This document shows, piece by piece, positions 7,583 through 42,463 of a stretch of DNA of 53,027 nt (positions within the stretch are counted from its first letter, which is position 1; each line of letters begins with the position of its first letter). The translations under genes were made by a program, and so were the position numbers. A model generated the notes under the pieces. That model was not told the origin of the DNA. It searched no databases and saw only the letters and a program-made list of their open reading frames with translations. The DNA comes from Paracoccaceae bacterium (GTDB lineage Bacteria > Pseudomonadota > Alphaproteobacteria > Rhodobacterales > Rhodobacteraceae). The stretch lies in the NCBI GenBank assembly GCA_026710155.1, contig JAPORQ010000034.1, forward strand, positions 1 to 53,027. Direction: 5' to 3'.

Positions 7583-8134
7583 CAGGGCTATCGCTTTTGA
7601 AATTGTTTGAGTGATATCAGTTGTCTTTTTTGTGAATCCATTGTTCACAAACCTGATTGGGAGCAGAAAATGGCAGGTTTATCACCGCTTAGTTCAAAAT
7701 ATTTGTATCAAGGGCAATAATTTGGGAATTATATACAATAGTTAAAATTCGGGATTGACAAGGTCTCAGGCAGCCGGTTTTGTTATCAGGTACTGTTTCC
7801 CTTGACACTATTGCAATGACCGCATGGCAATTGAAGGTTTTCAATGTGATCCGTTCCGCCGTTTGATTGGGAAATGATACCAATACAACTAATTAATAAC
7901 CGATAGGCTAATCATAATCATATGGTTTTTGATACCCTTGTCTAATTGGAATTTAACCTGGTAACAGCGTCCAATGGTGATTGAGTCTGTGGTTTCAAAT
8001 TTTACTGGTAGTTGGTTAAGGGCTATGAGTCTTTAATTAGTTGTATTGGTATAATTAGTTGTTCTGGTATTATATATACATGGGTAGACATCCAGAATCA
8101 CACCTGATCCCACGATCAACCGATGTTGAAATCA

Positions 8135-8530
8135 TTATTCAAACTGTGAACAATCAAAATTTTCTGGTTTCTGATCAGAATTACAAACCAAAAACACTAC
8201 GCCGTTTTCAATACTGCCAAAACGTTCGACCAGGTCATTCAAGTTCTTGGTATTTTGGATTTGTACGTGTTTCAAGTCTTCCAGAGCATGTTTCAAGTCT
8301 TCTTGATCTACTTTCAAGTCTTCCAGAGCGTGTTTCAAGTCTTCTTGATCTTCTCTTAATGCTCTTGACTCGGCTGAGAGTTCTTGAGCTTCGCCCAAGA
8401 AATAAACCACGAATACAGTCACAGCAGATATGACAGCAATCAACATTGTGATGGCCTGGCTGAATTCAGACGGTATCCAAACCCTTTTTCGTTCAGAGGG
8501 GTTTTTGTCAACAACTGTTTTTTCAACCAT
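8135..8530 (-). CDS. Small membrane-anchored coiled-coil protein
   Basis: A 131-residue protein of unknown function starting at ATG 8530, preceded by AAGGAGA at good spacing. A basic N-terminus (KNPSERKRVW) leads to one hydrophobic segment at about 26-45 (AITMLIAVISAVTVFVVYFL). A heptad-rich coiled coil follows to about 103. This contains two exact copies of DQEDLKHALEDLK (61-73 and 75-87), a 42-bp DNA duplication. The short C-terminal tail has a single Cys (FLVCNSDQKP). It lies within the 2.6-kb GGGAATTATATAC element, so it is probably cargo. The topology (one membrane span plus coiled coil) resembles phage-type or small accessory membrane proteins; no function can be claimed. Confidence 0.6.
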   Translation of the reverse strand: MVEKTVVDKNPSERKRVWIPSEFSQAITMLIAVISAVTVFVVYFLGEAQELSAESRALREDQEDLKHALEDLKVDQEDLKHALEDLKHVQIQNTKNLNDLVERFGSIENGVVFLVCNSDQKPENFDCSQFE

Positions 8531-8548
8531 CTCGATTCTCCTTGTCAA

Positions 8549-8929
8549 ATACTATATACTAAGTCATATGGCACATGCAACTTCAATACACAGGTGTATC
8601 CAAACTCTTGACCCTACCTTTTTTCGCGGGCAGATGCTGCACCAGTTCCTCTTGCAAAATCATCTGGAATTCCCCATTTACCAGCCAGGGTTGGCACGGT
8701 TTTCAGTCATGATGCAGCTCACCTTTCGTCCAGGAGGTTACGGTTGATTGGATATATGGGAATCGGTGTGGAATCCTGCAATATCCATAAACATAAAGGA
8801 TGAAGTAAGGGTCTGTACTTGTGTTTTTGTGGTATGTCCACTCCCCCCATCGAAAACCACCTCGTCGAGATTCTCGTCATTCTTTTCCAGCAAGGGTTCA
8901 AGTAGCTTGCGCCAGGTCGTGGCCATGAT
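8549..8929. other. Non-coding or decayed sequence inside the nested element
   Basis: No intact gene is seen. A minus-strand frame at 8738-8926 (MATTWRKLLEPLLEKNDENLDEVV, then FDGGSGHTTKTQVQTLT) reads like real protein and lies just downstream of the methyltransferase fragment. It may be a further piece of the same decayed restriction-modification locus. I do not recognise the family. Confidence 0.35.
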
Positions 8930-9045
8930 TTAATTGGGCATGGATCCCGCAGCTTCACTGCCGATCGGAGTTGCATAGTTGGCATTGGAGTTGAATGGCG
9001 GATCAAGGTAAATCAAATCGACCAAATTGGAATTCATGCTCTCAT
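8930..9045 (-). pseudogene. DNA methyltransferase fragment (motif IV region)
   Basis: A short minus-strand frame reads SMNSNLVDLIYLDPPFNSN followed by ANYATPIGSEAAGSMPN and a TAA at 8932-8930. VDLIYLDPPFNS is the catalytic DPP(F/Y) motif and its surroundings as found in N4/N6 site-specific DNA methyltransferases. Neither the SAM-binding region nor the rest of the enzyme is present nearby, so this is a remnant. It sits about 90 bp from the element carrying an hsdS fragment, pointing to a broken restriction-modification locus. Confidence 0.6.
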
Positions 9046-9137
9046 GGTGGGGAGGTTGTACCTGTCCATATGGTTTGGTTTTTCCAGTTCCGATTTGTCA
9101 CGAATTTTGCAAAAAAAGTTAAAAAATGAAATAAATT

Positions 9138-9690
9138 GGGGATTATATATTTGAATAGATTTTAAGTTTCGGGATTACATATTTGATCAAGCACACCTGA
9201 AGCGATCAATCCACCAGTTTGTCGCGGTAATACTCAAACTGCTTCTGCCTCAATTCGATTTCCCTCGCCAATTCCCTGGTCAATTCCTCCCAGCAATCCA
9301 GTTTTCCAACAATCCCCGCCTGTTCCTCGATGGAAGGGGGGATATGGGAATGGTTTGCAGGTCTCCAATGCATGCATGCGGAACACCGGCACCTTTTTTC
9401 AGCCTGAGGTGTCTTTGCAGCAGAATGGAATCGTCGGCATGGATTGAAAACGAATCGGACAGCCAGACGGGAACCGTCCAGAAACCCACAAAACCTGCAT
9501 GCACTCCCGATCCGGCGACGGCTATCGTCTCCCCTTCGCGATTGGACCCATTGTGGAAACATGCGGGCTTCCTTCACCCTGAAACAACCGGAACATCCCC
9601 TTCGACAACATCCTTCCGCGTGATCGGGATTCCTCTTTTGAACTCTGCAACATTTCCAAGTTTCATCATCTATTCAAATATATAATCCCC
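9138..9690. mobile_element. Inner nested element with GGGGATTATATA ends carrying hsdS
   Basis: A perfect 26-bp inverted repeat (9135-9160 and 9668-9693; outermost ATTGGGGATTATATAT) brackets 507 bp. An identical 8-bp direct repeat AATAAATT abuts the GGGG/CCCC termini on both sides (9130-9137 and 9691-9698). The terminus matches the larger enclosing element at GGG(A/G)ATTATATA. The subterminal TTAAGTTTCGGGATT resembles TTAAAATTCGGGATT of the larger element. The interior is essentially only the hsdS fragment. Confidence 0.8.
9206..9669 (-). pseudogene. hsdS: Type I restriction specificity subunit (HsdS) fragment
   Basis: The first frame starts at ATG 9669 (MMKLGNVAEFKRGIPITRKD, then VVEGDVPVVSG) and hits a stop. 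The same frame then continues with RKPACFHNGSNREGETIAVA, then GSGVHAGFVGFW and VWLSDSFSI. After a frameshift, SIEEQAGIVGKLDCWEELTR is followed by ELAREIELRQKQFEYYRDKL. This is one target-recognition domain plus one conserved spacer helix of a type I S subunit (the GETI...SGxxAGFV...SDSFSI pattern and the EEQxxIV..L helix). It is about half of a full HsdS and non-functional. Its start codon lies inside the right inverted repeat of the inner element. Confidence 0.75.
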
Positions 9691-9703
9691 AATAAATTAC
9701 CTA

Positions 9704-9719
9704 AATAGTTTAAACTATT
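9704..9719. promoter_or_regulatory. 16-bp perfect palindrome upstream of a small membrane protein gene
   Basis: AATAGTTTAAACTATT is perfectly self-complementary. It is followed at once by TTGACA-like sequence (TATTGACATAACTC) about 80 bp before the ATG at 9801. This is a plausible operator overlapping a promoter; the role is inferred. Confidence 0.4.
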
Positions 9720-9800
9720 GACATAACTCAAGTTGTGTAACCTTAAAGAAGTTAACTCAAAAAGAATTTGAAATGGTAAGTTTGATTTAATGAGGATAAC

Positions 9801-10299
9801 ATGGAATTAACCTGGACGCATATAATAAGTCTTGCAGGCATATTAATTGCCATAGGTATTTTGATTTTCAAACTAGGTGCATGGAAAGGCAGTGTCGATA
9901 AAAACCTTTCAACTGTTAATGAATTCATAACAGAAATTCGTAATGATGTAAAAGATATTCTCAAAAGACTTGGCCCTGCACCAATAAGCAGTGCAAGTCC
10001 AGTTCGATTAACTGATCTTGGAGTAAGAATATCAAATGATATAAATGCAAAAAACTGGGCTGAACACACTGCTCATCAAATGGTCGAACAAACCAAAGGG
10101 TTGGATCCTTTTGAAATCCAAGAGAAAACCTTTGATAAAGCCAACAGTTTTGACCCCGATGAAGGCACTACTTAAAAAGATGCGCTCATCTGCATTTAAA
10201 GAGGGATTGAATCTTGATGGTATTCGTGATGTACTTGGGGTTGTATTAAGAGACCGCTTGCTCGATAAAAATGGTATAGATATAGAATCCTTGGACTGA
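9801..10299 (+). pseudogene. Small membrane protein gene with a frameshift
   Basis: It starts MELTWTHIISLAGILIAIG with one membrane span in the first 25 residues, then LGAWKGSVDKN and a cytosolic domain (NEFITEIRNDVKDILKRLG). The first frame stops at 10175 (FDPDEGTT). A second frame carries straight on from the same point with LLKKMRSSAFKEGLNLDGIR, then DVLGVVLRDRLLDKNGID, ending at 10299. Together they give one coherent protein of about 165 residues, so a single indel near 10165-10175 splits it. The junction reads ACT ACT TAA AAA. Sequencing error or recoding cannot be excluded. The family is unknown to me; the gene lies inside the 2.6-kb nested element and ends about 40 bp before its right terminus. 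Confidence 0.55.
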
Positions 10300-10422
10300 T
10301 CATTCATTGGGTCAATCCTGCATTTTAAGTATATAATTCCCAATAATTTTTTGTCTGAACTACCCCGAAAAAGCGAATTATTGATAGAATATAATTGTGA
10401 GATTTCAAAAGCGATTGCCCTG

Positions 10423-10532
10423 CCTTCCGTAAAGAGCTATGGTTGGTACGGATCCGAGCGTTATTGCCCTTATCAATTCGTCCAGTTCTTTTTCCGGCCG
10501 TAAAACTTCAAGGGTACTGATTCAGAGGCCAT
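10423..10532 (-). pseudogene. AAA ATPase pseudogene, N-terminal part
   Basis: ATG at 10532 gives MASESVPLKFYGR. A one-base deletion then shifts to the frame EKELDELIRAITLGSVPTIALYGR, which ends at the insertion boundary. The KFYxREKELDEL...ALYGRRRxGKTEL pattern is the standard start of this ATPase family. The missing remainder continues at 7582 on the same strand. The 10-bp CCTTCCGTAA at 10423-10432 is the right copy of the target duplication. Confidence 0.8.
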
Positions 10533-11776
10533 GGTTAAGTCCAATTTAGAATATTTTTAGAAACTTATTCGTAAGTAATATAAAGAGGCGTTCAATCCAT
10601 GACCAAAGGTAATGAAACTCAAGTAAAAGTAATTGTTCTGAAACAAAGATACCTAAATTGAAAGCTATTTTCCTGATCAACATATATATGATATTTTTGG
10701 GGCTTATAAAGATGGGTTGGCGGATGTGCGATTTTTCTCCCGGTCTGAACTATCCCACCTGATGGAACCTGGGGATGCCGCGCATGTCCAGACCGTAACC
10801 CAGTTGGATGAGGCCCCAATGGCAATGACGGGGAAACACCCCGTCATGAATGCTACCGTGTTCACACATCTTTTTTTCAGTTGTTCCCTGCCTCTTTTCC
10901 TGCGATGCGATTCTCCCTGGCTGTCATTGAATTGAAGCAGGCGATTGACAGATGGAATAGGAGGCACCATCCCCTGGGGACCGTCGCATTGACCAAGCCG
11001 TTCCTTATGCGGGCGCCGGAGCTGCCGCTGAATGGCCAAGTGCAACGGGGAGTTGTTGGGGGATATGCGTCCATGGTGACGGTTGTTGCCGACCGGGAAG
11101 CCGACATCCACGGTATGCCTGCCTGTCGCCCGGGTTCAGGCGCGCCCTGGAGGGCGGCACCGTTGTCATGGAAAACCCAGACCGGTTGTCATGCTGCGGG
11201 GACTGTACCGATTCCGGGCCATCCGGCCTGGACATGACCCGGGAGGATTTGTGTGAATCCAGTAGGGAGTGACTGGGAGCGTGAGTTTCTGTGGTATCCC
11301 GACTGGGAAGGGGACATGCCGTTCAGTGCCTCGGAAAACGGTTCCTGATAGCCTTGGGACCGGCACCCCGTGCGCCGAGGAACGGCGGGAATTGGCATGG
11401 GTGGACTAGATGCCTGGCAGGAATTGGTGAATGAATTGATGGGGGAGCATGGATTGTGACAGGACCGGCTTGAAGGCTGCTTTGACAAGGCTGGTGGATT
11501 GATTCATCATCAACCTATCTTTATAAGCCTCATATTTTTTTGTAACTATTCATGTATTAAATTTGTCAATATCTTGAAGGTTTTGGAATTTTACAGACAA
11601 AAATGTACAGGATTGTGCAGAAAAATATGTTGGGGGATACCGATTTCGCCTATTTTCAGGGCACTCAGGATACCTGAATAGTTACATTTTTTTGTCATAA
11701 CCTAACCACTTAATTACTAATCAAATAAAGATTATTACATTGGTTAAAATGATAAAATAAACTCAAGAAGTAATTG
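10533..11776. other. Gene-free debris with a GC-richer block
   Basis: No intact gene is recognised in this 1.2 kb. The part from about 10700 to 11480 is clearly GC-richer than its surroundings and contains several overlapping short open frames on both strands, none with a recognisable domain, so it looks like decayed foreign sequence. From 11500 the sequence returns to AT-rich and leads into the ABC-F gene. Confidence 0.6.
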
Positions 11777-13594
11777 ATGCAGTCAAATCTCCAGATACGT
11801 GTTCAGGAATTAGAAGTGAACTTTGGTGGTGATCCATTGTTCTCAAACATTTCCTTTAATCTTCATGAAGGGAACAAGGTATCACTGGTGGGACGAAATG
11901 GTTGTGGTAAATCCACCTTGTTTAAGGTTATCGCTGGAGATGTCGAACCTGATCATGGTACAATGGACACGAGCAAAGGTCTCAGGATTGCCTATCTGGG
12001 TCAAAAGGAAAATTTTGACAACTACCGAACTTTGGGTGATTTTGCGTCAAGAGATCTTGATGAAAGCGAAAAATACCTGGTTGATGTGACAGCGCAGGTG
12101 TTGGGATTTGATCCTGATGCACTTGTGGATGAGTCCTCTGGTGGCGAAAAACGAAAGGCAGCCTTGGCAAGGGTTTTTGCCAAGGAACGGGACCTGTATC
12201 TGCTGGATGAACCAACAAACCATTTGGATATCAACGCCATTCTTTGGTTGGAAGAAACAATCAAGACCTCTGTTAAAAGTTTTGTCGTAATAAGTCATGA
12301 CAGAAAACTCTTGTCTAACATGGGAGGAATGACCTTTTGGCTGGATCGGGGTCAATTGCGTATTTGCCCCTACGGCTACAATAGGTTTGAGGAGTGGCAG
12401 GAGGATATTCTTGATCTGGAAAATACCCATCGAACCAAGTTAGACCGGCAGATAAGAACGGAAACTCTCTGGTCCAAAGAAGGGATTAGTGCCCGACGAA
12501 AAAGAAATCAGGGCAGATTGAAGGCCTTGGAAAAACTGAGGGAAAAAAGAGCCGGGTTTGCCCAGCGGGAAACAACTTTTTCAGTAAATATCAACCAGCC
12601 GAAAAGTGACACTCAAATGGTGTTGGAAGCTTTCAATATCAATAAGACGCTTGGGGACAGGGAAATCATCAAGGATTTTTCATTACGTATTCTGAAAGGT
12701 GACCGAATTGCGATCGTTGGCCCTAACGGGGCCGGCAAGTCGACTTTGTTAAAGACTTTGACAAAGGAAATCGGAGTTGACCGGGGGAAAGTCAGGTTGG
12801 GATACAATTTTGATCTGGCAGCGATGTGGCAGGACAGGACCGTGGACAATCTGAACATCAGTGTTCAGGAATTCTTGGTCGGTAAAGGAGCAAATACAAG
12901 GGACCAACCGGACCAGGTGATTTTTCAGGGAAGGGGCCTTCATATCATTTCCTATATCAAGAAGTTCCAATTCGAATATTGGAAGGCAAAATCTCCATTG
13001 AAGTCGTTGTCAGGTGGCGAATTGGGCAGAATGTTGCTGGCCAAGATATTCTTGCGGGAAAGCAATTTTTTGGCACTTGATGAGCCAACAAATGATCTCG
13101 ATGTTGAAACCCTCGATATGTTGAAGGAAATTCTGGCCAACTACAAGGGCACCGTGGCATTCGTATCGCACGATCGTGATTTCATCGATAATGTCGCCAA
13201 CATAACCATTGCATATGAAGGTAATGGTGAATGGCAGGCCTACAGTGGCGGTTGGTCTGATTGCCTGAAGCAGAAAAAGAATCCTGCCGGTACTGGAAAT
13301 ACCTACTTACCAATAGCAAAAATCCCAAAGAAAAAAGAAAAACCGATAACCAAATCAATCAATGGGAATCTGCTTTCCTTTACAGAAAGGCATCGTTTGG
13401 AAATCCTACCTGATTTGATTGAAAACAAGGAAGCGAGGATATCCGAATTGACAGTCAAGCTGGAAGATCCAAACCTCTACTCCGATAATTCCAATTTGTT
13501 TGAAGAGTTAACCAATGATTTGGCAGAGGAGCAGACCAAACTGGTTTCGCTTGAAGAGGAATGGTATCAACTTGCATGCAAGCAGGAAGGATAG
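11777..13594 (+). CDS. uup: ABC-F family ATPase, Uup-like
   Basis: A 605-residue soluble protein with two ABC cassettes and no membrane domain. Cassette 1 has Walker A GRNGCGKST (39-47), signature SSGGEKRKAALARVF and Walker B LYLLDEPTNHLD. Cassette 2 has GPNGAGKST (315-323), LSGGELGRMLLAKIF and FLALDEPTNDLDV. The linker between them (ETLWSKEGISARRKRNQGR) and the C-terminal coiled coil (ENKEARISELTVKLED...) are typical of Uup rather than EttA. Uup proteins act on ribosomes or on branched DNA, limiting precise transposon excision in E. coli. Start chosen at ATG 11777 over an upstream TTG. The gene converges on parE with six bases between stop codons. Confidence 0.9.
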   Translation: MQSNLQIRVQELEVNFGGDPLFSNISFNLHEGNKVSLVGRNGCGKSTLFKVIAGDVEPDHGTMDTSKGLRIAYLGQKENFDNYRTLGDFASRDLDESEKYLVDVTAQVLGFDPDALVDESSGGEKRKAALARVFAKERDLYLLDEPTNHLDINAILWLEETIKTSVKSFVVISHDRKLLSNMGGMTFWLDRGQLRICPYGYNRFEEWQEDILDLENTHRTKLDRQIRTETLWSKEGISARRKRNQGRLKALEKLREKRAGFAQRETTFSVNINQPKSDTQMVLEAFNINKTLGDREIIKDFSLRILKGDRIAIVGPNGAGKSTLLKTLTKEIGVDRGKVRLGYNFDLAAMWQDRTVDNLNISVQEFLVGKGANTRDQPDQVIFQGRGLHIISYIKKFQFEYWKAKSPLKSLSGGELGRMLLAKIFLRESNFLALDEPTNDLDVETLDMLKEILANYKGTVAFVSHDRDFIDNVANITIAYEGNGEWQAYSGGWSDCLKQKKNPAGTGNTYLPIAKIPKKKEKPITKSINGNLLSFTERHRLEILPDLIENKEARISELTVKLEDPNLYSDNSNLFEELTNDLAEEQTKLVSLEEEWYQLACKQEG

Positions 13595-13600
13595 GTTGAA

Positions 13601-15568
13601 TCAAATATCCAGATTTGAAGCAAAGGAAGCCTTTTCCTGTATGAACATGAATCTTTCCTCTGCTTTTCGTCCCATCAGCCGTGAAATCAGATCATCAGTG
13701 TCATCATCTTCATCTCGGGCAACACAAACTCTCAGAAGCGTGCGAGAATCAGGATTCATGGTGGTGTTTTTCAAATCCTTGGCATCCATTTCACCCAGAC
13801 CCTTGAATCTGGAGACCCTGACCGGACCACGCCCCCCCAACCCTTTTTCAAAAAGTTCCTCCTTGGTGTTGTCATCAAGGGCATATACTTTTAATGGACC
13901 CTGGGAAAGACGGTACAGGGGAGGGCAGGCAAGATAGAGATGCCCATTCTCAACGATTGGTTTCATTTGGGAATAGAAAAAGGTCATCAAAAGGGAAGCA
14001 ATATGGGCACCATCGACATCTGCATCGGTCATGATGATGATCTTGTCATAACGCAAATCCTCAAGTTTGAAGCCACTGCCCATTTCGACGCCAAGTGCCT
14101 GACAAATATCCTTTATTTCATTGTTGGTCGTTATCTTGGAGGAGGCAGCACCAAGGACATTCAAAATCTTACCTCGCAAGGGAAGCAGTGCTTGGGTATT
14201 TCTGTCCCTGGCCATTTTGGCTGAGCCACCGGCCGAATCTCCTTCAACCAGAAAAATTTCCGAATTTTCCGGATCAGTAGACGAACAATCAACCAATTTT
14301 CCAGGCAGTCTCAATTTGTTGATCGCAGTCTTGCGACTTGCAATCTTGGCTTTTTTCCTTCGTATCCTTTCGTCGGCCCTCAGGGCAACCAAATCAATCA
14401 ACTGGTTGGAAACCCTGGGATTTCCGACCAGCCAGTTTTCGAAATGATCCCTGACGGAATTTTCAACCAGCCTTTGGGCGCCAGAGGTTACCAGCCGTTC
14501 CTTGGTTTGACCCGAGAATCTTGGATCCTGGATAAAGCAGGACAGCAAGGCACATCCATTGGATTGTATGTCTTCCCTGATGATTTGCTCGATCTGCTTG
14601 TTTCCAACTATTCCACCATAGGTTTTCAATCCCTTGAGAATGGCTGCCCAGAAGCCTGATTCATGGGTTCCGCCCAATGGTGTCGGAATGGTATTGCAAA
14701 AGGAATGGCTATAACCATCCATATAGGGACCCCAGTTGAGGGCCCATTCAACGGAACCTACGGATTTCTTGCCAAACTTCTCTGAAAAATCAACCTTGCC
14801 GACAAAATGGTTTTCGGCGAGCATTTCCGAATCATTTGTTGTTTCCGATAAAAAGTCGGAAAGACCTCCGGGAAAATGAAAAACCGCCTTGGGTGGAATC
14901 TCCGATGTTTCATAATTGCAAACCCAGGTGATTTTGACCCCGGAGAAAAGAAATGCTTTGGCCCGCACCAACTTGAAGATGATGCCGGGTTTCAATTTGA
15001 TCTTGTCACCAAAGATTTCCCTGTCCGGCAAAAACCTGACGGAAGTTCCCCGCCGGTTGTAAATCTTGCCGGCATGGGTCAGTTCATTCGTGGGCATGCC
15101 CCTGGCAAAACCCTGGGTATATAATTCCTGGTTACGGGCCACTTCCACTTCCATATATTCGGAAAGGGCATTTACAACGGAAATGCCAACCCCATGGAGA
15201 CCACCGGAAGTGGCATATATCTTGTTGGAGAATTTGCCACCTGCATGAAGGGTGGTAAGAATTACTTCAAGGGCCGACTTGTCCGGGAATTTTGGATGCG
15301 GATCAATGGGAATGCCACGGCCGTTGTCCCTGATGGTCAAACTGCAATCCTCGTGAAATTCAACATCAATCCGGTCGGCAAAGCCGGCGACGGCTTCGTC
15401 CATTGCGTTATCTATAATTTCTGCGGCCAGATGATGAAGCGATTTCTCATCAGTACCACCGATATACATCCCGGGATGACGTCTCACAGGTGTTAAACCC
15501 TCAAGGACTTCTATATCTTCGGCACTGTAAGAATTATCTTCGGGTTGGTCTTGTGAAAATAAATCCAT
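13601..15568 (-). CDS. parE: DNA topoisomerase IV subunit B
   Basis: A 655-residue type IIA topoisomerase ATPase subunit that decatenates chromosomes with ParC. The GHKL ATPase motifs are present: catalytic Glu50 in AAEIIDNAMDEAV, DNGRGIP (81-87) and GGLHGVG (122-128). The TOPRIM block shows EGDSAGGSAK and DADVDGAH, and the C-terminal GLGEM segment (RFKGLGEMDAKDL) is intact. The short length without a GyrB-type insertion and the HPGMYIGGTDEKSLHHL stretch favour ParE over GyrB. Start taken at ATG 15568 (MDLFSQDQPED); a TTG at 15580 is an alternative. Transcribed divergently from the MATE gene. Confidence 0.92.
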   Translation of the reverse strand: MDLFSQDQPEDNSYSAEDIEVLEGLTPVRRHPGMYIGGTDEKSLHHLAAEIIDNAMDEAVAGFADRIDVEFHEDCSLTIRDNGRGIPIDPHPKFPDKSALEVILTTLHAGGKFSNKIYATSGGLHGVGISVVNALSEYMEVEVARNQELYTQGFARGMPTNELTHAGKIYNRRGTSVRFLPDREIFGDKIKLKPGIIFKLVRAKAFLFSGVKITWVCNYETSEIPPKAVFHFPGGLSDFLSETTNDSEMLAENHFVGKVDFSEKFGKKSVGSVEWALNWGPYMDGYSHSFCNTIPTPLGGTHESGFWAAILKGLKTYGGIVGNKQIEQIIREDIQSNGCALLSCFIQDPRFSGQTKERLVTSGAQRLVENSVRDHFENWLVGNPRVSNQLIDLVALRADERIRRKKAKIASRKTAINKLRLPGKLVDCSSTDPENSEIFLVEGDSAGGSAKMARDRNTQALLPLRGKILNVLGAASSKITTNNEIKDICQALGVEMGSGFKLEDLRYDKIIIMTDADVDGAHIASLLMTFFYSQMKPIVENGHLYLACPPLYRLSQGPLKVYALDDNTKEELFEKGLGGRGPVRVSRFKGLGEMDAKDLKNTTMNPDSRTLLRVCVARDEDDDTDDLISRLMGRKAEERFMFIQEKASFASNLDI

Positions 15569-15821
15569 TTTTCTGCTCAATATGTCTGCTTATCACCACA
15601 TATAGTAAAAAATGCATGCTTAATGCAATATATTGTGGATTATTCATTAAATTTTGTTGTGGGTAACCCTGACAATCCAAATTTTTAAAGACTTGTTATT
15701 CTCAAGGTGTAAATTATTGTTCCTGTAACAGTATATTGAACATTCCCCTTCTGATTTTCAAACCGTTGGTCTTGATTTAATTCAGTTCTCCGGGAAAACT
15801 GAAAGCTCCAGAAATTCAATC

Positions 15822-21297: not shown

Positions 21298-21456
21298 GGG
21301 AATTATATCCTTGGTTGAATTTCCCATTTACCGAAAATACAAGGGGTGTTCAGACACCTCGAGGGGATACCATTGCACTCCAGGGGGAAACAGCGTGGGA
21401 GGTTTTTTAGAAAAATGGCCGAAAAACCAGGAAATTCAACCAAGTATATAATCGCC
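21298..21456. mobile_element. 159-bp GGGAATTATAT-type miniature element (copy 3)
   Basis: The left end GGGAATTATATCCTTGGTTG and the right end, read on the opposite strand (GGCGATTATATACTTGGTTG), agree at 24 of 27 positions including a following AATTTCC. The terminus matches the family at 7724 and 22455, but the interior is different and non-coding. It contains a short hairpin GGTGTTCAGACACC. No convincing 8-bp flanking duplication remains. Confidence 0.65.
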
Positions 21457-22454: not shown

Positions 22455-22635
22455 GGGAATTATATACATAACTACACAACAGCTTCCTTTTTCTACTTTT
22501 AGTCACTTTTAGGCTTCATTCATGGAGTTTGGCAGGTAATTTGTGAGTGAAAAAACACGTCCATACCAACATGAAGTAGAAAAAGTGAATGAATCCGCTA
22601 ATTTTGGGATTTGTGTAGTTATGTATGTAATTCCC
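22455..22635. mobile_element. 181-bp GGGAATTATATAC miniature element (copy 4)
   Basis: The left end GGGAATTATATACATAACTA and the right end on the opposite strand GGGAATTACATACATAACTA agree at 24 of 25 bases (continuing CACAA). The interior is an imperfect palindrome: TTTTTCTACTTTTAG on the left against AAGTAGAAAAAG on the right. It is homologous throughout to the element at 42285-42463, sharing blocks such as GGTAATYTGTKRGTGAAAAAA and AGTGAATGA followed by AATTTTGGG. Flanks TAAAATTT and TAAAAAAA may be a decayed duplication. Non-coding. Confidence 0.8.
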
Positions 22636-32604: not shown

Positions 32605-32691
32605 AGTTTCCCTTGGCAAAATTTGATGTTTGACGTTACAGAACTATAACAAAGATACAATTAGCCCTTGATTGAATTATGGCTTGTTAAT

Positions 32692-33655: not shown

Positions 33656-33760
33656 GGATATTCATTTTGAAATCATCCAACCAACCCCCAACCACACGGA
33701 TTTTTCATGCAGGGATTACAGGTGGTGTGCGGGTTAAACATATCAGCTTTTACCAATAAT

Positions 33761-33778
33761 AGGTCAAGCGACCTTTTT
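33761..33778 (+). terminator. Short hairpin with T-tract after the LysR gene
   Basis: AGGTC-AAGC-GACCT is followed by TTTT, about 105 bp past the regulator stop. A second inverted repeat TATCAGG/CCTGATA follows at 33781-33805. The stem is short, so this is only moderately convincing. Confidence 0.5.
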
Positions 33779-33948
33779 GATATCAGGGATTTTCATCTCC
33801 TGATAATTGAATTAAAGCCAACAAATACCTAACTTCAACTTCTTGAGAACAAAAAGTGAATACCAGTAATTCAAAGTAGGTCAAGTCAGGAGAATTAATA
33901 CTCCAGGCAGGAGTAATTAAAAACCAAACTATTCCAAACAAACAGAAT

Positions 33949-34033
33949 GCGGGTGTGGCGGAATTGGTAGACGCACCAGATTTAGGATCTGGCGCTTTGA
34001 TGCGTGGGGGTTCAAGTCCCTCCACCCGCACCA
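33949..34033 (+). tRNA. tRNA-Leu (UAG anticodon)
   Basis: An 85-nt class II tRNA with encoded CCA. The acceptor stem GCGGGTG pairs with CACCCGC, the D-loop contains GAATTGGTAGACGC, and the anticodon arm CCAGA-TTTAGGA-TCTGG gives anticodon TAG (33983-33985). There is a variable arm, and a T-loop GGTTCAAGTCC. It directly precedes tig, a common alphaproteobacterial arrangement. Confidence 0.97.
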
Positions 34034-34050
34034 GGAAATGAAAGTTGCTA

Positions 34051-35637: not shown

Positions 35638-35661
35638 CAAAGTTGAAGTGAGGCAGGTAGA

Positions 35662-36279
35662 ATGGACCTTTTGAAAAATGCATTGATTCCTACGGTAGAT
35701 GAGCAAACACCACGAGGAGAAAAAAGATATGATATTTTTTCCAAGTTGCTTAAGGAAAGAATTGTTTTTTTATGCGGCGAAATCAACGAGGAAGTATCGA
35801 CGCTTGCCGTAGCTCAATTGCTGTTTCTGGAGTCCGAGAATCCAAAATCGGAAATCTTCATGTATATTAACAGTCCCGGTGGTGAAGTGGATTCGGGTCT
35901 GGCCATTTATGATGCCATGCAATATGTTTCCCCACCAGTCTCCACGCTGGCATTTGGGCGGGCAGCCTCCATGGGAGCCCTGTTATTGACTGCTGGAGCG
36001 GAGGGCAAACGTTATTCGCTACCCCATTGCTCGCTTATGGTACATCAATCAATGGGAGGATTTCGAGGAAGATTCAGTGATGTCACCATACATTATGATC
36101 ATATGAAACAACGGGAAAACACCTTGCGGGACATACTCATGAAGCATACTGGAAGGACTAGGGAGGAAGTGAGTGATGCCATCAGGGATGGCGACAAGCA
36201 TCTCAACCCCCAACAGGCACTCGAGTGGGGGTTGATTGACAAAATTGTCACAACTCGTTCAAATGAGTCGGGTCAATAA
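35662..36279 (+). CDS. clpP: ATP-dependent Clp protease proteolytic subunit
   Basis: A 205-residue serine protease forming the tetradecameric Clp chamber. The catalytic residues are visible: Ser103 in GRAASMGALLL, His128 in HCSLMVHQSMGG, and an Asp near 178 in DGDKHLNPQQALEWG. The oxyanion-hole SPGGEVDSGLAIYD stretch is present. It lies 24 bp after tig and upstream of its partner clpX. Confidence 0.97.
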   Translation: MDLLKNALIPTVDEQTPRGEKRYDIFSKLLKERIVFLCGEINEEVSTLAVAQLLFLESENPKSEIFMYINSPGGEVDSGLAIYDAMQYVSPPVSTLAFGRAASMGALLLTAGAEGKRYSLPHCSLMVHQSMGGFRGRFSDVTIHYDHMKQRENTLRDILMKHTGRTREEVSDAIRDGDKHLNPQQALEWGLIDKIVTTRSNESGQ

Positions 36280-36352
36280 ACCTTTTTCCATTTTTTTGGT
36301 ATTAGGTTAATATCAACCATAACTGTTTTGACAATAAATTGGGTAATCGCTC

Positions 36353-37615
36353 ATGGTAAATCAGACTCCGCCTGAAGATAGTGAACTTCTCTGTTCATTC
36401 TGCAGTAAAAGCAAAAGTGAGGTCAAGAAGTTGATTGCCGGTCCCAACGTATACATGTGTGATGAATGTGTGGAACTTTCTGTGGAGATAATCAAACAGG
36501 ATAAGGAGGTAATTTCCCGAAAGCAGAGGCATCAGTCGACACCGCCGCAGGAAATCTACCGGTTTCTTGATGATTATGTAATCGGCCAGTCCCATGCCAA
36601 GAAGGTGCTATCCGTAGCGGTTTACAACCATTACAAGATGCTGAATAATCTGGATACCGACCTCGGTGTTGAAATCGCCAAGTCCAATATTCTATTGATT
36701 GGTCCAACCGGCAGCGGCAAAACCCTGCTGGCCCAGACCCTGGCCAAATTGTTGGATGTTCCCTTTACCATGGCTGATGCCACTTCCCTCACGGAAGCCG
36801 GATATGTGGGTGAGGATGTTGAAAACATAATTCTGAGGTTGTTGCAGGCCGCAGAATATAATGTATCGAAAGCCCAGCGGGGAATTGTCTATATTGATGA
36901 ATTGGACAAGATCACCCGCAAGACCGACAATCCCTCGATTACCAGGGATGTAAGTGGAGAAGGGGTTCAACAGGCATTGCTCAAGATCATAGAGGGTACG
37001 ATTACCTCCATCCCGCCCAGAGGAGGAAGAAAACATCCACAACAGGAATTCCTGCAGGTGGACACCACCAATATCCTGTTTATTTGCGGTGGTGCCTTTG
37101 CCGGCTTGGAAAAGGTAATCCAAAAGCGTACGAGACCATCAGCCCTCGGGTTTGAGGTGGCAATTTCCGATCTGGAAACCAAGGGATTGAGTGAACTTCT
37201 GGAGGATCTTGAGCCTGAGGATTTGATGAAATTCGGCCTTATCCCTGAATTCGTCGGAAGATTGCCAGTCGTTGCAACCTTGAATGAGCTCGATGAGGAT
37301 GCCTTGGTAAGGGTACTTACAGAACCCAGGAATTCACTTATCAAGCAATTCAAAAAACTTTTTGAACTGGATGGCATCAAGTTGACCTTCACGGACGAGG
37401 CAATCAGGGTCGTAGCGCGAAAGGCGACCGAATTGAAGACTGGTGCAAGGGGGCTGAGGTCCATCATCGAACAAATATTGCTTGATACCATGTTTGAATT
37501 GCCACTGGACGAAAGCGTGGTTGAGATTGTTGTCAATGAGGAAAGTGTCGTATCGAACACGCCCCCAATGAAGTTCTATTCTGAAAGTAACCTTTCCAAG
37601 GTTGTGGGGTCCTGA
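36353..37615 (+). CDS. clpX: ATP-dependent Clp protease ATPase subunit ClpX
   Basis: A 420-residue AAA+ unfoldase. The N-terminal zinc-binding domain has Cys14, Cys17, Cys36 and Cys39. Walker A is GPTGSGKT (117-124), the pore loop is EAGYVGED, Walker B is [11 protein letters not shown], and the RKH loop is [16 protein letters not shown]. The ClpP-docking loop reads SALGFEV, the IGF equivalent. Standard length. It follows clpP by 73 bp. Two bases after its stop a complex I accessory gene begins, where lon is expected in many relatives. Confidence 0.97.
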
Positions 37616-37617
37616 AC

Positions 37618-38004
37618 GTGTCAGGATTGATTAACTTTGTTGTTCGCTTGCTGACCTGGTGGAATTCCCAGACCCTGGGTACCCAGTTCTACACGTGGCG
37701 CAAGGGCCAGAAGGTGGGGGAGGATCACGAGGGCAATATCTTTTACCAGACAAAGGATGGTAAAAGAAGGTGGGTGGTCTACCGTGGCAATATAGAGGCT
37801 AGTAGGGTTTCACCACAATGGCATGGCTGGTTGCATCATACCTTTGAACATCCGCCAACCGAGGATCCGCTGCCCATGAATGCATGGGAGAAGCCCCACA
37901 TTGAAAACAAGACCGGCATGCCGGAAGCATATTCTCCGCTTGGATCATTACGAGGAAAAAGGAGGGATTTGACCCAGGATTACATTCCCTGGAGTCCCGA
38001 ATAA
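37618..38004 (+). CDS. NDUFA12 / B17.2-like complex I accessory subunit
   Basis: A 128-residue homologue of the mitochondrial complex I 17.2-kDa accessory subunit, found in Alphaproteobacteria. It shows the hallmark sequence GTQFYTWRKGQKVGEDHEGN, YYQ-type FYQTKDGKRRWVVY and WHGWLHHTFEHPPTEDP. GTG start at 37618, two bases after the clpX stop, so it is probably translated from the same transcript. A peripheral complex I role is known for the family. Confidence 0.92.
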   Translation: MSGLINFVVRLLTWWNSQTLGTQFYTWRKGQKVGEDHEGNIFYQTKDGKRRWVVYRGNIEASRVSPQWHGWLHHTFEHPPTEDPLPMNAWEKPHIENKTGMPEAYSPLGSLRGKRRDLTQDYIPWSPE

Positions 38005-38017
38005 ACCAGGTTGGATT

Positions 38018-38461
38018 ATGGCCGAAAACAAATTGGAAATAGTTGTTGGTGCAGCCGTCCTGTTGATTGCCGGAATATTTTTCTACCTTCTCCTGCTTGA
38101 AAACGACACCTTTTTGGAAAATGGGGGGTATGAACTGGTGGCAGAATTCAATTCCGCCCAAGGTGTTTCTGTCGGTACCGATGTCAAGTTGGCAGGAATA
38201 GCGGTGGGTTCGGTTACGGGCATGGCCATAAATCCGGCGACCTACAAGGCCGATGTGAAATTGATAATCAGCTCGGACCTGGACATACCCGTTGACAGTT
38301 TTCTTGCCGTATCCTCCGAGGGATTGCTTGGGGGAAATTTTATTGAAATCCTCCCGGGAATTGATTTCGAATATTTTCAACCTGGTGAAAAAGTGGTTCA
38401 AACCCAATCATCGGTTGATTTAATGAGCGTTATGGCTGGTTTTGCAAATTCACAAAACTGA
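38018..38461 (+). CDS. mlaD: MlaD-type phospholipid-transport substrate-binding protein
   Basis: A 147-residue periplasmic protein anchored by one N-terminal helix (LEIVVGAAVLLIAGIFFYLL). It has a single MCE domain (YELVAEFNSAQGVSVGTDVK, LAGIAVGSVTGM, then SEGLLGGNFIEILPG). MlaD hexamers bind phospholipid for the Mla inner-membrane complex. The other mla genes are not in the window, which is common for this alphaproteobacterial cluster. The short length fits the family. Confidence 0.92.
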   Translation: MAENKLEIVVGAAVLLIAGIFFYLLLLENDTFLENGGYELVAEFNSAQGVSVGTDVKLAGIAVGSVTGMAINPATYKADVKLIISSDLDIPVDSFLAVSSEGLLGGNFIEILPGIDFEYFQPGEKVVQTQSSVDLMSVMAGFANSQN

Positions 38462-38463
38462 AG

Positions 38464-38859
38464 ATGTGGCATCTGGGATATATTTTCCTGACCGCTCTCC
38501 TGCTTCCAGGGATTGCCCTTTCACAGACAAGCCTTCAGGGTGATGGAGCCATTTTAAGATCACTTGATACCATTACTGGCAGGGCCATGGACCTGACAGT
38601 GGAAGTGGGGCAAAGCCTTGATTTCAAACACTTTGAAATTGCCCTTGAGGAATGCAGGTTTCTACCTGAAAACCCGGTAAAATTTTCCTATGCCTATGTC
38701 ACCATCACCAATCAGAGAAATCAATCGGTTTTATATTCCGCCTGGATGATTTCACACTTGCCGGCCTTGTCGGCATTTGAACATCCCCGTTTTGATTTCT
38801 GGTTAATCCGCTGTATCACCCTTGCACCGGAAGATTCCAATGGCATGGAAGAAAACTGA
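38464..38859 (+). CDS. DUF2155 secreted protein
   Basis: A 131-residue exported protein: signal peptide MWHLGYIFLTALLLPGIALS, then the DUF2155 domain ending in the conserved GWM-type segment, here YSAWMISHLPALSAFEHPRF followed by DFWLIRC. Function unknown; the family travels with mlaD and NDUFA12. Its last 139 bp overlap the 3' end of the convergent aat gene. Both frames contain conserved family residues here or nearby, so the overlap is real on the DUF2155 side. Confidence 0.88.
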   Translation: MWHLGYIFLTALLLPGIALSQTSLQGDGAILRSLDTITGRAMDLTVEVGQSLDFKHFEIALEECRFLPENPVKFSYAYVTITNQRNQSVLYSAWMISHLPALSAFEHPRFDFWLIRCITLAPEDSNGMEEN

Positions 38860-39431
38860 ACGTTTGTCTTGAGGCAGGTTTCACCAATCAAGCGCAGGAA
38901 TTTGCTTTCCGAAATTCGCCTTCCGCCCATATTTGCCAAATGCAAACTGGGAATCTGGGCATCCAAAACCTCAAAGCCCGTACGATTCAGGTGATCAACA
39001 AGATAAACCAGGGCAATCTTGGACGCATCCGATTTGACAAAAAACATGCTTTCACCAAAAAACACACCCCCGATGGCAACTCCATAAAGTCCACCAACAA
39101 GATCATCGCCATCCCATACTTCAAGTGAATGCACAAGATCAATTTTGCTCAGTTGGATATAGATGTGCTTGACTGCTGGATTGATCCAGGTTGATTTTCG
39201 CCTTGAACACTGGTTGATGACCAGATGAAAGTTCTTGTTTATGGTCAGATGAAATGGGTCAGACCTGATTTTTCGCCTTAACCTTTTTGAAACCCGCAAA
39301 TCATCAAGCGGTATGATAAATCGTTCCCTTGACCTTGCCCATTCGAAGGAATATGGGTCATCTTCATCACCCATGATGAAATTACCCTGATGATAGTTCA
39401 ATATGAATTGATCGACAAACCCATCAGTCAT
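38721..39431 (-). CDS. aat: Leucyl/phenylalanyl-tRNA--protein transferase with extended C-terminus
   Basis: A 236-residue enzyme that adds Leu or Phe to N-terminal Arg/Lys, marking proteins for ClpAP (N-degron pathway). Core motifs: HLTINKNFHLVINQCS, TWINPAVKHIYIQLSKI, LVHSLEVWDGDDLVGGLYGV and ESMFFVKSDASKIALVYLVD, then QIPSLHLANMGGRRISESKF. The family normally ends shortly after that last block. Here about 45 extra residues (LKTNVQFSSMPLESSGARVI onward) run antisense into the DUF2155 gene. It lies 19 bp downstream of accC. Confidence 0.9.
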   Translation of the reverse strand: MTDGFVDQFILNYHQGNFIMGDEDDPYSFEWARSRERFIIPLDDLRVSKRLRRKIRSDPFHLTINKNFHLVINQCSRRKSTWINPAVKHIYIQLSKIDLVHSLEVWDGDDLVGGLYGVAIGGVFFGESMFFVKSDASKIALVYLVDHLNRTGFEVLDAQIPSLHLANMGGRRISESKFLRLIGETCLKTNVQFSSMPLESSGARVIQRINQKSKRGCSNADKAGKCEIIQAEYKTD

Positions 39432-39450
39432 GAAACAATCACTGCAGCCC

Positions 39451-40821
39451 CTAACCGTTTTTCAGCAAACCACCGTTTTTCTTCAACCATTTCTCCAGCC
39501 AATGGATGTCATAGCTCGATTCAAGGAAATCCTTGTCTTCGAGAAGCAATTGGAAAAGAGGAGCGGTGGTGCTGATTGGATGAACGATCAACTCCTCCAA
39601 GGCCCGCTTCAATTTGGCGATAGCCAAGGTTCTGTTTTCACCATGTGATATCAATTTGCCAATCAGGCTGTCATAGTTTGGCGGAACCGAATAACCGTTG
39701 TAAAGGAATGAGTCCATTCTTATGCCCAAGCCTCCGGGTGAATGGTACAAGCCAACCTTGCCAGGACTGGGAATGAAATCGGGTACGGTTTCGGCATTGA
39801 TTCTGACCTCGATGGAGTGTCCCCTGGCCTTGAGGTCTTCCTGCTTGAGTTCCAAGGCAATTCCAAAAGCAACCTTGATTTGTTCCTTGACCAGGTCAAT
39901 GCCGTATATTGCTTCTGTAACAGGATGCTCAACCTGCAGGCGGGTATTCATTTCAATGAAATAAAATTGTCCACTATCATACAAAAACTCGATGGTTCCA
40001 ACCCCCTTGTAGCCCATCTCGGCAATTGCCTTGGAACAAATTTCACCTATTTCCATTCTGGTTTGGTCATCAAGAACCGGACTGGGGGCTTCTTCAAGCA
40101 GTTTCTGGTGCCGTCTTTGGATGGTACAATCCCGTTCCCCTAGATGAATGGCATTGCCCTGGCCATCGCCCAAAACCTGGATTTCGATATGCCGACCATG
40201 AAGGAGGAACTTTTCCAAATAAACTTCTTCATTGCCAAAACTGGCACCAGCTTCCTGTTGGGCGGCATGGTAGGCCTGTTCAAGATCACTTTCGGATCTT
40301 ACCACCTTCATTCCTCGTCCCCCACCACCGGCAGAAGCTTTTACAATCACCGGATAACCGATGTCTCTGGCAACACTCCGGGCCATTTCAACGGAATCGA
40401 TGCTCTCATTTGGCCCTGGCACACATGGAACCCCAAGATTCAGCATTGTTTCCTTGGCCGTTATCTTGTCTCCCATGAGTTTGATATGCCCGGAGGAAGG
40501 TCCGATGAAGGTGATGTCATGGTCCTCCAACTGTTCAACAAATTCGGCATTTTCAGACAGAAAACCATAGCCCGGATGAACGGCATGTGAACCGGTTATT
40601 TCACAAGCTGAAATGATGGCCGGAATTGACAAGTAACTTTCCTTGTTGCCAGGGGACCGGGGTTTGCCGATGCAAACGGCTTCATCCGCAATCCGGACAT
40701 GCATGGCGTCCTGATCAACAGTCGTGTGGACTGCTACGGTATCTATTCCCATCTCCTTGCAAGTCCTGATTATTCTAAGGGATATTTCGCCACGGTTGGC
40801 AATGAGTATTTTTGAAATCAT
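39451..40821 (-). CDS. accC: Acetyl-CoA carboxylase, biotin carboxylase subunit
   Basis: A 456-residue ATP-grasp enzyme that carboxylates biotin on AccB. It shows ISKILIANRGEISLRIIRTC, the glycine-rich ATP loop KASAGGGGRGMKVVRSE, HIEIQVLGDGQGNAIHLGER, YIEMNTRLQVEHPVTEAIYG and the R-region HSIEVRINAE. The start is ATG 40821; an upstream in-frame TTG (40857) adds an unconserved tail. It lies 53 bp after accB, the normal operon order. Confidence 0.97.
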   Translation of the reverse strand: MISKILIANRGEISLRIIRTCKEMGIDTVAVHTTVDQDAMHVRIADEAVCIGKPRSPGNKESYLSIPAIISACEITGSHAVHPGYGFLSENAEFVEQLEDHDITFIGPSSGHIKLMGDKITAKETMLNLGVPCVPGPNESIDSVEMARSVARDIGYPVIVKASAGGGGRGMKVVRSESDLEQAYHAAQQEAGASFGNEEVYLEKFLLHGRHIEIQVLGDGQGNAIHLGERDCTIQRRHQKLLEEAPSPVLDDQTRMEIGEICSKAIAEMGYKGVGTIEFLYDSGQFYFIEMNTRLQVEHPVTEAIYGIDLVKEQIKVAFGIALELKQEDLKARGHSIEVRINAETVPDFIPSPGKVGLYHSPGGLGIRMDSFLYNGYSVPPNYDSLIGKLISHGENRTLAIAKLKRALEELIVHPISTTAPLFQLLLEDKDFLESSYDIHWLEKWLKKNGGLLKNG

Positions 40822-40874
40822 TGTGTTAAAGTCCGTTTGGCTTGACGGGAGATTCAATGGTCACCGGATTGACA

Positions 40875-41345
40875 TCAATCGATAATCATCAATTCGGAAC
40901 CGAACTGCACCGGTTCCCCATCATCCACCATGATTTTGCGAACGGTGCCAGCATGGGGTGCACCAATGAAATTCATTGTCTTCATCGCTTCGATGATAAG
41001 AATTGTATCACCCTCGTTGACACTTTGACCTAACTTGACAAAGGGAGTGGGGGCCTCGGGGCTTTGCTTGAGATAAACCGTTCCAACCATCTCTGATGAA
41101 ACCAGGCCGCTTTTTTCGGATTGGTTCTCATCCGGTTGGTGTGAGGGGGTAGGGGCTTCTGGGCATGGGGCAGGCAGGGGCAAACTGTTGGAAACCTGGT
41201 ATCCACTGGAATAATTGGCCATTCTCAATTTAATTCGGGATGTATCCTCTTCCTTGAATTCCACCTCAAACTCTCCAAGTCCCTTTTCCTTGAACATATC
41301 AATGAGTTTGGAAATCATTTCCAATTTCGAGTCTTGCTTGGCCAC
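40875..41345 (-). CDS. accB: Acetyl-CoA carboxylase, biotin carboxyl carrier protein
   Basis: A 156-residue carrier: N-terminal segment (SKLIDMFKEKGLGEFEVEFK), a Pro-rich linker (SLPLPAPCPEAPTPSHQP) and the C-terminal biotinyl domain (VGTVYLKQSPEAPTPFVKLG to SELMIID). The biotinylated Lys is in EAMKTMN, where Thr replaces the usual Leu/Met. The start is GTG 41345 with GGAGG five bases upstream, preferred over TTG at 41357. aroQ, often found just before accB, is absent. Confidence 0.94.
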   Translation of the reverse strand: MAKQDSKLEMISKLIDMFKEKGLGEFEVEFKEEDTSRIKLRMANYSSGYQVSNSLPLPAPCPEAPTPSHQPDENQSEKSGLVSSEMVGTVYLKQSPEAPTPFVKLGQSVNEGDTILIIEAMKTMNFIGAPHAGTVRKIMVDDGEPVQFGSELMIID

Positions 41346-41377
41346 CTGAACCTCCAAAAATTAGCTTGTCGTATCTA

Positions 41378-42193
41378 CTAGTTTGTTGTTGTTTCCAATT
41401 GATCCAATTCATACTGGAATTCTTCAGAAGTCAGAAAACCCCTGATGATCTTTGTACCCAAGATAAATGTTGGAGTTGCATTTATTTCCAGCGCCTGAGC
41501 AAGCTGATAATTGGTATCCAAAACGTCCATAACAGAGGAGTCAACCATTTTGTCCATCAAATCCTGCAAATCCAATGAGGTCATTTCCGCTACTTCAGAA
41601 ATGACCTTCTCGCTGACTGGCCCCTCAAGTGACAGGAGAAAATCATGAATCATCTTGTATTGTTCGGGTCCGGCAAGTTGAAATACGGCTATCGCAAGTC
41701 TGGATGAAATATCAGATTGCTCGCCCAGAATTGGAAATTCCCTGACAACCAGACGCAAGTCAGAATTGGTGTCAATGATGTCTTCGATAACTTGTTGGGA
41801 ATTACGACAATAGCCACAACGATAATCAATGAATTCAACCAGATTAATTTCTCCTTCGGGATTGCCGCCCACCCAAGAATTCGGATCATGGAATATTTCG
41901 TCCGCAAAGGATTCAATAAATCCCCTATCCCTTTCCAGGTTTGCCTCATTTTCCTGTTCCTGCAACCTTTCGATAACATCAAGCAATATTTCGGGGTTGT
42001 TCAATAAATACTCTTTCACCAGTTCACCAAAAACCGTCTTTTCATCAGAACTGAGGTTTTCCAGGTCAAAGGCATTTATAGGTGATGTCAGGAAGAAAAG
42101 AAGAAACCCAACACCAAGTATCCGCCTCACCAGTAAGGTTAGTCCAAAACCCGATAGATTAATATGAAAAAAATTGCCGAATTCGCTTTTCAT
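41378..42193 (-). CDS. DsbA-family periplasmic thiol-disulfide protein
   Basis: A 271-residue exported protein with a long N-terminus ending in a hydrophobic signal (RRILGVGFLLFFLTSPINAF). An N-terminal helical segment (VKEYLLNNPEILLDVIERLQ) is followed by a thioredoxin fold with active site YRCGYCRNS and the cis-Pro loop INATPTFILGTKIIRG. This is the Com1/ScsC-like DsbA subgroup (DSBA_oxidoreductase with the PEILLDVIERLQEQE head). It probably catalyses disulfide formation or isomerisation. Directly upstream of accB by 32 bp. Confidence 0.88.
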   Translation of the reverse strand: MKSEFGNFFHINLSGFGLTLLVRRILGVGFLLFFLTSPINAFDLENLSSDEKTVFGELVKEYLLNNPEILLDVIERLQEQENEANLERDRGFIESFADEIFHDPNSWVGGNPEGEINLVEFIDYRCGYCRNSQQVIEDIIDTNSDLRLVVREFPILGEQSDISSRLAIAVFQLAGPEQYKMIHDFLLSLEGPVSEKVISEVAEMTSLDLQDLMDKMVDSSVMDVLDTNYQLAQALEINATPTFILGTKIIRGFLTSEEFQYELDQLETTTN

Positions 42194-42284
42194 GATATTG
42201 ATACTCCTTTGGCTATTGGAACATGATTAAAGTTACAAGATTCATTATTTTCAATTTCCATGAAACTTCAAAGCAATTTTTTGG

Positions 42285-42463
42285 GGGATTACATGCATAG
42301 TCGCACCATTCTTGCTTTTACTCCTTTATGTCGTATTTCCACTTCATTTATGTGGTTTGGAAGGTAATCTGTTGGTGAAAAAAGTCAACTGCATCAAAAT
42401 GAAGTGCAGCAAGTGAATGATTCTGCCAATTTTGGGGTTTGTGCAGCCATTTATATAATTCCC
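42285..42463. mobile_element. 179-bp GGGAATTATATA miniature element (copy 5)
   Basis: The left end GGGATTACATGCATAGTCGC and the right end on the opposite strand GGGAATTATATAAATGGCTG are diverged inverted repeats. The interior aligns along its whole length with copy 4 at 22455-22635, for example CTTCATTYATG, GTTTGGMAGGTAATYTGT and TGAAGTRSARMAAGTGAATGA. It lies between the DsbA-like gene and the 3' end of rne, where its hairpin could act as a transcript end. Confidence 0.8.

Follow-up and report, generated by a model that had tools for sequence, protein, structure and literature searches.

The insertion sequences (IS) of the IS1595 family fall into the groups IS1595, IS1016, ISPna2, ISH4, ISSod11, ISNwi and ISNha5, and non-autonomous IS derivatives that carry passenger genes are called mobile insertion cassettes. 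The accessible part of one survey lists as IS1595 features a DDE_Tnp_IS1595 transposase domain, a zinc ribbon (in all groups but IS1016) and an 8-bp target duplication; for Merlin it gives terminal GG, an 8- or 9-bp duplication and a related DDE domain (PMC8101967). Passengers are on record too: MTnSag1 (tISSag10) and tISCpe8 have an IS1595-type transposase, terminal inverted repeats, an 8-bp duplication and passenger genes, as given in the accessible part of PMC5704250. Here we consider a 53,027-nt stretch of a Paracoccaceae genome (the window), in which an earlier note, made from the sequence alone, had proposed an undescribed family of transposable elements with five members. All five have inverted GGG(A/G)ATTATATA-type ends and none has a transposase; because copies in the same genome encode IS1595 transposases, the window copies are very probably non-autonomous elements of the IS1595 type.

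IS1595 transposases between the ends

The six tested transposases of long copies all match NF033547 above its cut-off (IS1595 family; E 8e-43 to 4e-58), and both of two tested exceed the cut-offs of PF12762 and PF12760; six transposases are 41-52% identical to the first one. In 50 aligned transposases, the zinc-ribbon residues C48, C66 and C69 are invariant, as is D148, and D218 and E250 are conserved in at least 90%; D148, D218 and E250 would be the catalytic three. A transposase profile had no match among PDB sequences, and a fold search with a transposase model (pLDDT 87) had a retroviral integrase as its best match, a weak one (E 6e-4, TM 0.30). Matches occur in 376 plasmid records, all less than 60% identical.

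PF12762 has 16 matches in the genome, several of them fragments, and none on the window contig. Eight two-ended elements bear a transposase (C10, C11, C13, C21, C51, C64a, C64b and C65); matches on C6, C15, C18, C29, C44 and C73, which have no bracketing pair or are fragments, and on C77, a fragment only, were left out. The target duplication is 8/8 in six of the eight, 7/8 in C65 and absent from C64a.

Ends, duplications and an empty site

By the earlier note's own test, its proposal would fall if the genome held no further copies. The draft genome (3,134,940 bp in 83 contigs, one of which is the window) holds GGGRATTATATA exactly 100 times (49 forward, 51 reverse), as against once for the reversed pattern. 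The note had also suggested examining inverted pairs for 8-bp duplications and seeking a copy with a transposase. In 60 stretches around exact hits and the window, 25 of 473 inverted candidate pairs have an exact 8-bp duplication and 31 one of at least 7/8, versus means of 0.02 (maximum 1) and 0.34 in 224 shifted controls; the exact duplications are 93% A+T. One empty site was found: the flanks of the 1267-bp C64b element form one uninterrupted stretch in sister genome G006 (89% and 92% identity), as they do in G005 (67% for both), and since the two flank matches overlap by exactly 8 bases, the empty site holds a single target copy. The left flank had no match in the remaining six species of the genus.

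The motif is present in 12 of 61 genomes (own included), seven of the eight congeners among them, in copy numbers of 1 to 47; GGGRATTATATAC occurs in 25 of 289 genomes of the class (own included), 83 times in the own genome and 12 times in the next highest. End motifs are enriched near contig ends (of the 99 exact motifs on contigs of known length, 14 lie within 500 bp versus 2.6% expected): the assembly breaks at elements, so full-length copies are probably undercounted.

How would copies without a transposase move? Nine two-ended copies of a 181-bp miniature inverted-repeat transposable element (MITE; C8, C29, C51, C54, C55, two on C70, C78 and C82), which share about 90-100% identity with the one on C29, are each flanked by an 8/8 duplication. 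The C2 element, 717 bp without a transposase, shares 89 bp at one end (98.9% identity) and 64 bp at the other (98.4%) with the transposase-bearing C10; its duplication differs from that of C10, and it holds 93 bp that are 94.6% like the right end of C11. It is a deleted, chimeric derivative at its own site, and from this derivative we infer that the window copies presumably moved in trans. A DDE transposase from transposase-bearing copies elsewhere in the genome would recognise the ends (consensus GGG(A/G)ATTATATAC), and the segment between two inverted ends would be inserted into an A+T-rich target, of which 8 bp would be duplicated; internal deletion, nesting and recombination of transposase-bearing elements would then yield MITEs and carriers of gene pieces. 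Transposase-bearing elements often hold methyltransferase or restriction-modification genes, frequently right behind the transposase, and this cargo is seemingly exchanged. Some copies may still be active.

Two further segments were seen. At L086 1241-2188 (contig C82), a 1394-bp element without a transposase but with an 8/8 duplication carries a gene for an SDH-type ClpP-like serine proteinase. At L049 1075-4297 (contig C27), a GGG-ended 3.2-kb segment without a duplication adjoins HsdS remnants and encodes a KAP NTPase related, below the family cut-off, to QatA of an anti-phage system.

Elements of the window

The window copies lie where the earlier note had placed them (Table 1), and much of its description holds: two members, A and B, have perfect, A+T-only 8-bp duplications, these larger copies carry gene pieces, and the members are genuine transposable elements that are non-autonomous in the window. 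No transposase was detected in them by tblastn with two transposases. At two mismatches or fewer, the motif matches 19 times in the window versus 8.6 expected, and none of 100 shuffles reaches 19. Element A has in common with C64a the methyltransferase remnants and the relative of a 184-aa open reading frame (ORF), and lacks a transposase. The left edge of the last member can be read as 42284 or 42285.

Table 1. Features of elements in the window, with tblastn evidence where cargo was recognised.
Feature	Position	Strand	Details
Element A	7724-10341		2618 bp including nested B; very probably IS1595-type non-autonomous, without transposase; exact GGGAATTATATA at both ends; duplication 8/8
A target duplication, left	7716-7723		8 bp, AATAATTT
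A target duplication, right	10342-10349		8 bp, AATAATTT
Second short methyltransferase-HNH remnant	7789-7878	-	Same C21 protein as below: 63% over 30 residues, E 2e-6
137-aa ORF in A	8135-8548	-	No relative among the stretches searched
DNA methyltransferase gene remnant, cargo of A	8942-9043	-	C21 methyltransferase-HNH protein: 79% over 34 residues, E 2e-10
Element B	9138-9690		553 bp, non-autonomous, nested in A; exact GGGGATTATATA ends; duplication 8/8
B target duplication, left	9130-9137		8 bp, AATAAATT
B target duplication, right	9691-9698		8 bp, AATAAATT
Degenerate HsdS (type I specificity subunit) fragment, cargo of B	9209-9660	-	C70 HsdS: 45% over 132 residues at 9301-9660, E 5e-29; shorter matches from 9209
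Relative of 184-aa protein of C64a element, two frames	9873-10290	+	27% (112 residues) and 37% (51 residues), E 1e-12
Old, truncated copy related to the 181-bp MITE	21298-21456		85-89% identity to 181-bp copies over about 133 bp; flanks 3/8, no duplication left
181-bp MITE, another subfamily	22455-22635		93.9% identity to C45 copy; flanks 5/8, no full duplication
Diverged MITE, subfamily of 22455-22635	42284-42463		78% identity to C45 copy over 120 bp; flanks 5-6/8, no full duplication

Outside these elements, a tandem array at 4384-4695 repeats a 69-bp unit 4.5 times (99% matches) and has a weaker periodicity of 23 bp; it just precedes a 464-aa ORF at 4659-6053.

Relatives in other bacteria and on viral contigs

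Are such ends peculiar to one genome? The transposase alignment, searched against genome contigs, found at least 580 relatives (580 of 585 candidate stretches), and the best 80 were kept; elements at these foreign loci were defined by two bracketing ends that begin with GG, agree in at least 11/16 bases and have a duplication of 7-8/8. Such a pair is present in 60 of the 80 loci; four loci (L134, L161, L162 and L171), the sole archaeal one among them, were dropped because their ends are unlike the motif, which means that this definition also lets chance pairs through, and 56 were kept. These 56 elements have a median length of 2.9 kb, a GC content below that of the flanks in 49 cases and an 8/8 duplication in 53, the duplications being 78% A+T; none of their 112 ends departs from T, T and A at positions 6-8 (the two opening G being imposed by the search). 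Going by record titles, their hosts belong to 12 phyla, with two unplaced (three extra tree rows were left out). On viral contigs the criterion was two ends with at most three mismatches to the motif and a duplication of 7/8 or better, and 45 of the best 80 relatives satisfy it. Because bracketed IS1595 transposases occur in many phyla and on viral contigs, the GGG-type end marks a broad IS1595 clade rather than the window genome alone.

In a tree of 65 transposases the phyla are mixed (25 changes versus a minimum of 13 and a shuffled mean of 33), which suggests transfer between phyla. An RpoB tree of 26 rows places the window genome among alphaproteobacteria, in a group with a Roseovarius row (69% identity, starred branch). 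Bin names from sponge studies occur in 40 of the best 80 relatives: 21 have prefixes that appear to fit sponge species sampled in PMC8163846 (accessible part), 18 follow the jk18x naming that PMC9531527 applies to Ircinia sponge bins, and one is Spongia_Bin9. As these are the best 80 of at least 580, the counts are no gauge of how closely the clade is tied to sponges; the relatives on viral contigs speak for a host range wider than sponges.

Methyltransferase and restriction cargo

What do the elements carry? A methyltransferase gene or its remnant is found in seven of the eight transposase-bearing two-ended elements of the genome, C64b being the one without. C21 has a PF01555 gene with HNH, and C10 and C64a have the same kind in pieces; PF01555 is followed by a 202-aa ORF without a family in C13 and by RE_CfrBI in C65, PF02086 is followed by PDDEXK_11 in C11, and C51 has a methyltransferase fragment. 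The transposase and methyltransferase genes overlap by 4 bp in C11 and C13. The 202-aa protein of C13, a putative nuclease, matched no Pfam family and no PDB sequence, and its single-sequence model (pLDDT 39) was of no use. C55, in which no transposase was seen, has a methyltransferase with a T5orf172 domain. Of the genome's 25 PF01555 matches, six fall within the 1.3% of sequence that lies inside 36 two-ended elements (p 7e-7, a rough value, as the matches are not all separate genes).

Abroad, 22 of the 56 elements carry a methyltransferase: 17 fall in a single BLAST cluster of the N6_N4 type, fragments included (L163 has no Pfam match), three have N6_Mtase (L111, L152 and L166) and two a C5 enzyme (L129 and L150). 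Cluster sizes had pointed to L122 and L170 as HsdS carriers; Pfam ruled these out, so that the restriction-modification count is 22/56, not 24. In 11 of the 22 the methyltransferase starts on the same strand within 40 bp past the end of the transposase match, and in four it lies on the other strand. The remaining 34 elements yielded no methyltransferase; eight of their large ORFs were tested, of which five have no family at 0.01, the others being CsgG-like, trypsin-like and a sub-threshold match. The 58 cargo ORFs of the 45 viral-contig elements include, by Pfam, N6_N4_Mtase (7), C5 (2), N6_Mtase (1), MvaI_BcnI nuclease (2) and P63C (3). In the IS1595 elements L299, L332, L342 and L368, on predicted viral contigs, P63C, RhuM or KilA-N proteins stand directly behind the transposase. 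Three Bryobacterales elements with close transposases (L149, L158 and L163; 1.7, 2.9 and 2.2 kb) form a decay series: L158 has the full-length methyltransferase, and those of L149 and L163 are shortened.

HsdS genes are carried as well. The seven HsdS domain matches of the genome represent five loci, four of which lie between GGG-type ends, with a duplication of 8/8 in C70, 6/8 in C10 and none in C59 and C20; the fifth, on C51, has an HsdM gene nearby. A mosaic structure is seen in the C59 element, which matches the C70 element over 442 bp (97.3% identity) and window element B over 203 bp (98.5%). A mobile HsdS acting as partner of the resident type I system was considered and dropped: the C70 HsdS is 25% identical to that of C51, which gives no support to its pairing with the resident HsdM.

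A dispersed family of proteins of about 200 aa was also noticed, with 31 matches in the genome, including 52827-53024 (-) of the window and L035 5129-5737. By our own reading its members have an apparent signal peptide; their GC content is 0.52-0.65 in a 44% GC genome, and the family occurs in two of 13 genomes searched (own and G004). Among 30 loci examined (25 own, five G004), two GGG-type ends with at most three mismatches each and a duplication are found only at L217 (8/8), L219 (7/8) and L223 (7/8), which limits capture to a small fraction of the family; L225 has an 8/8 match but poor ends (four and three mismatches) and was taken as chance.

Alternative explanations

Could the motif be an A+T-rich promoter or regulatory element, paired by chance? 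It is A+T-rich, and some copies are solitary within the stretches taken; however, chance pairing does not produce 25 exact duplications where controls give 0.02, an empty site in a sister genome or 100 hits to one for the reversed motif. The earlier note had named a promoter motif without paired ends as what would undo its proposal; pairs, duplications and empty site lead us to reject it, and its probability is practically nil. The note's own undescribed family, to which the IS1595 genes between the ends would be chance insertions, agrees with the lack of a transposase in the window copies, but an IS1595 transposase lies in eight two-ended elements of the genome, foreign IS1595 transposases are bracketed, with 7-8/8 duplications, in 56 and 45 of the best 80 relatives each, and the 8-bp duplication is a listed IS1595 feature (PMC8101967, accessible part). 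With IS1595 transposases found between such ends, in this genome, in many phyla and on viral contigs, we reject this part of the note as very improbable. Several points weigh against the assignment of the window copies to IS1595-type elements. Three of the five have no clear duplication (flank matches 3/8, 5/8 and 5-6/8), and elsewhere paired ends lack one in C64a, C20, C59, C27 and C77; the C11 ends are a variant, GGGGGTTATACGCTTG, identical over 16 bases and unlike the consensus; transposase genes are apparently broken, that of C65 lacking a core stretch, that of C64a having N at the second catalytic position and that of C51 being split over two frames; and 24 of the 80 best relatives have no credible element. 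Most elements also hold ORFs besides the transposase, where the family usually has a single transposase gene; this does not exclude membership, since passenger-bearing IS1595 members are known.

If the elements are IS1595 transposons, is their cargo selected or incidental? IS1595 transposons may take any neighbouring gene, methyltransferases being frequent only because the hosts are rich in them and of no use to the element, and we rate this somewhat below an even chance. Sponge symbionts are indeed described as rich in restriction-modification genes (PMC8163846, accessible part); unrelated methyltransferase classes are carried (PF01555, PF02384, PF00145 and PF02086), 34 of 56 elements yielded none, and secreted, protease-like and IS66 genes are also among the freight. 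No correlation, moreover, links methyltransferase similarity to transposase similarity (Mantel r 0.09, p 0.28, 15 elements), and from this sequence comparison the transposons seem to exchange cargo. Incidental uptake accords less well with comparisons made on the same contigs: single PADLOC MTase_II models hit as many as 19 of the 109 cargo proteins versus at most one of 94 flanking ORFs, and Pfam N6_N4_Mtase matches 16 of 109 and is absent from the control families listed (25 of 100); the type IIG, REase_MTase_I and mad2 models each match two of the 94 controls, mad2 matching 16 of 109 cargo proteins. The concentration of PF01555 inside the genome's two-ended elements, the close same-strand placement in 11 of 22 carriers and the 4-bp gene overlaps likewise speak against it. 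That the cargo is a functional module rather than incidental freight is about an even call: it may act as an addiction module, in defence or not at all.

Comparison with known systems

Passenger-bearing IS1595 elements are already known; the methyltransferase and restriction cargo is the unusual part. In the open-access literature we found no report of IS1595 elements as recurrent restriction-modification carriers, and an earlier report is possible. Sponge symbionts of many phyla are described as enriched in restriction-modification genes reported to be laterally transferred, 'potentially mediated by MGEs' (mobile genetic elements); in the accessible part of that study 'transposon' and 'transposase' do not occur and no vehicle is named (PMC8163846). 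Our findings suggest that IS1595 transposons are one route by which methylation and restriction genes spread. Small transposons with a recognisable end, a fixed duplication and restriction-modification cargo are a concrete vehicle, and one that genome scans can target. A nearly constant end sequence is retained by transposases that share only about half of their residues, so one transposase might serve many foreign passengers. A bolder reading, which we hold to be rather unlikely, would make this clade a main cross-phylum restriction-modification vehicle in dense symbiont communities such as sponges: transposase and methyltransferase or nuclease would form one operon, its restriction-modification part a swappable addiction and defence module stabilising the element, and HsdS copies without a transposase would be mobile, recombining DNA-specificity cassettes.

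How, then, do the elements compare with those described? With Merlin they share terminal GG, duplication length and a related DDE domain; Merlin, however, is eukaryotic and without a zinc ribbon, whereas the transposases here have PF12760. Like MITEs and passenger-carrying non-autonomous IS derivatives, the copies without a transposase have the ends of an autonomous element; unlike in those, the parent here is IS1595, and some copies carry HsdS genes or fragments or a secreted-protein gene. The IS1595 family itself shares the DDE_Tnp_IS1595 domain, the zinc ribbon and the 8-bp duplication, but most elements here hold extra ORFs, often a DNA methyltransferase. MTnSag1 (tISSag10) and tISCpe8 likewise have an IS1595-type transposase, inverted repeats, an 8-bp duplication and passengers; the accessible part of their description has both as mobilizable and tISCpe8 as a lincomycin-resistance element (PMC5704250), while the passengers here are mainly methyltransferase and restriction genes.

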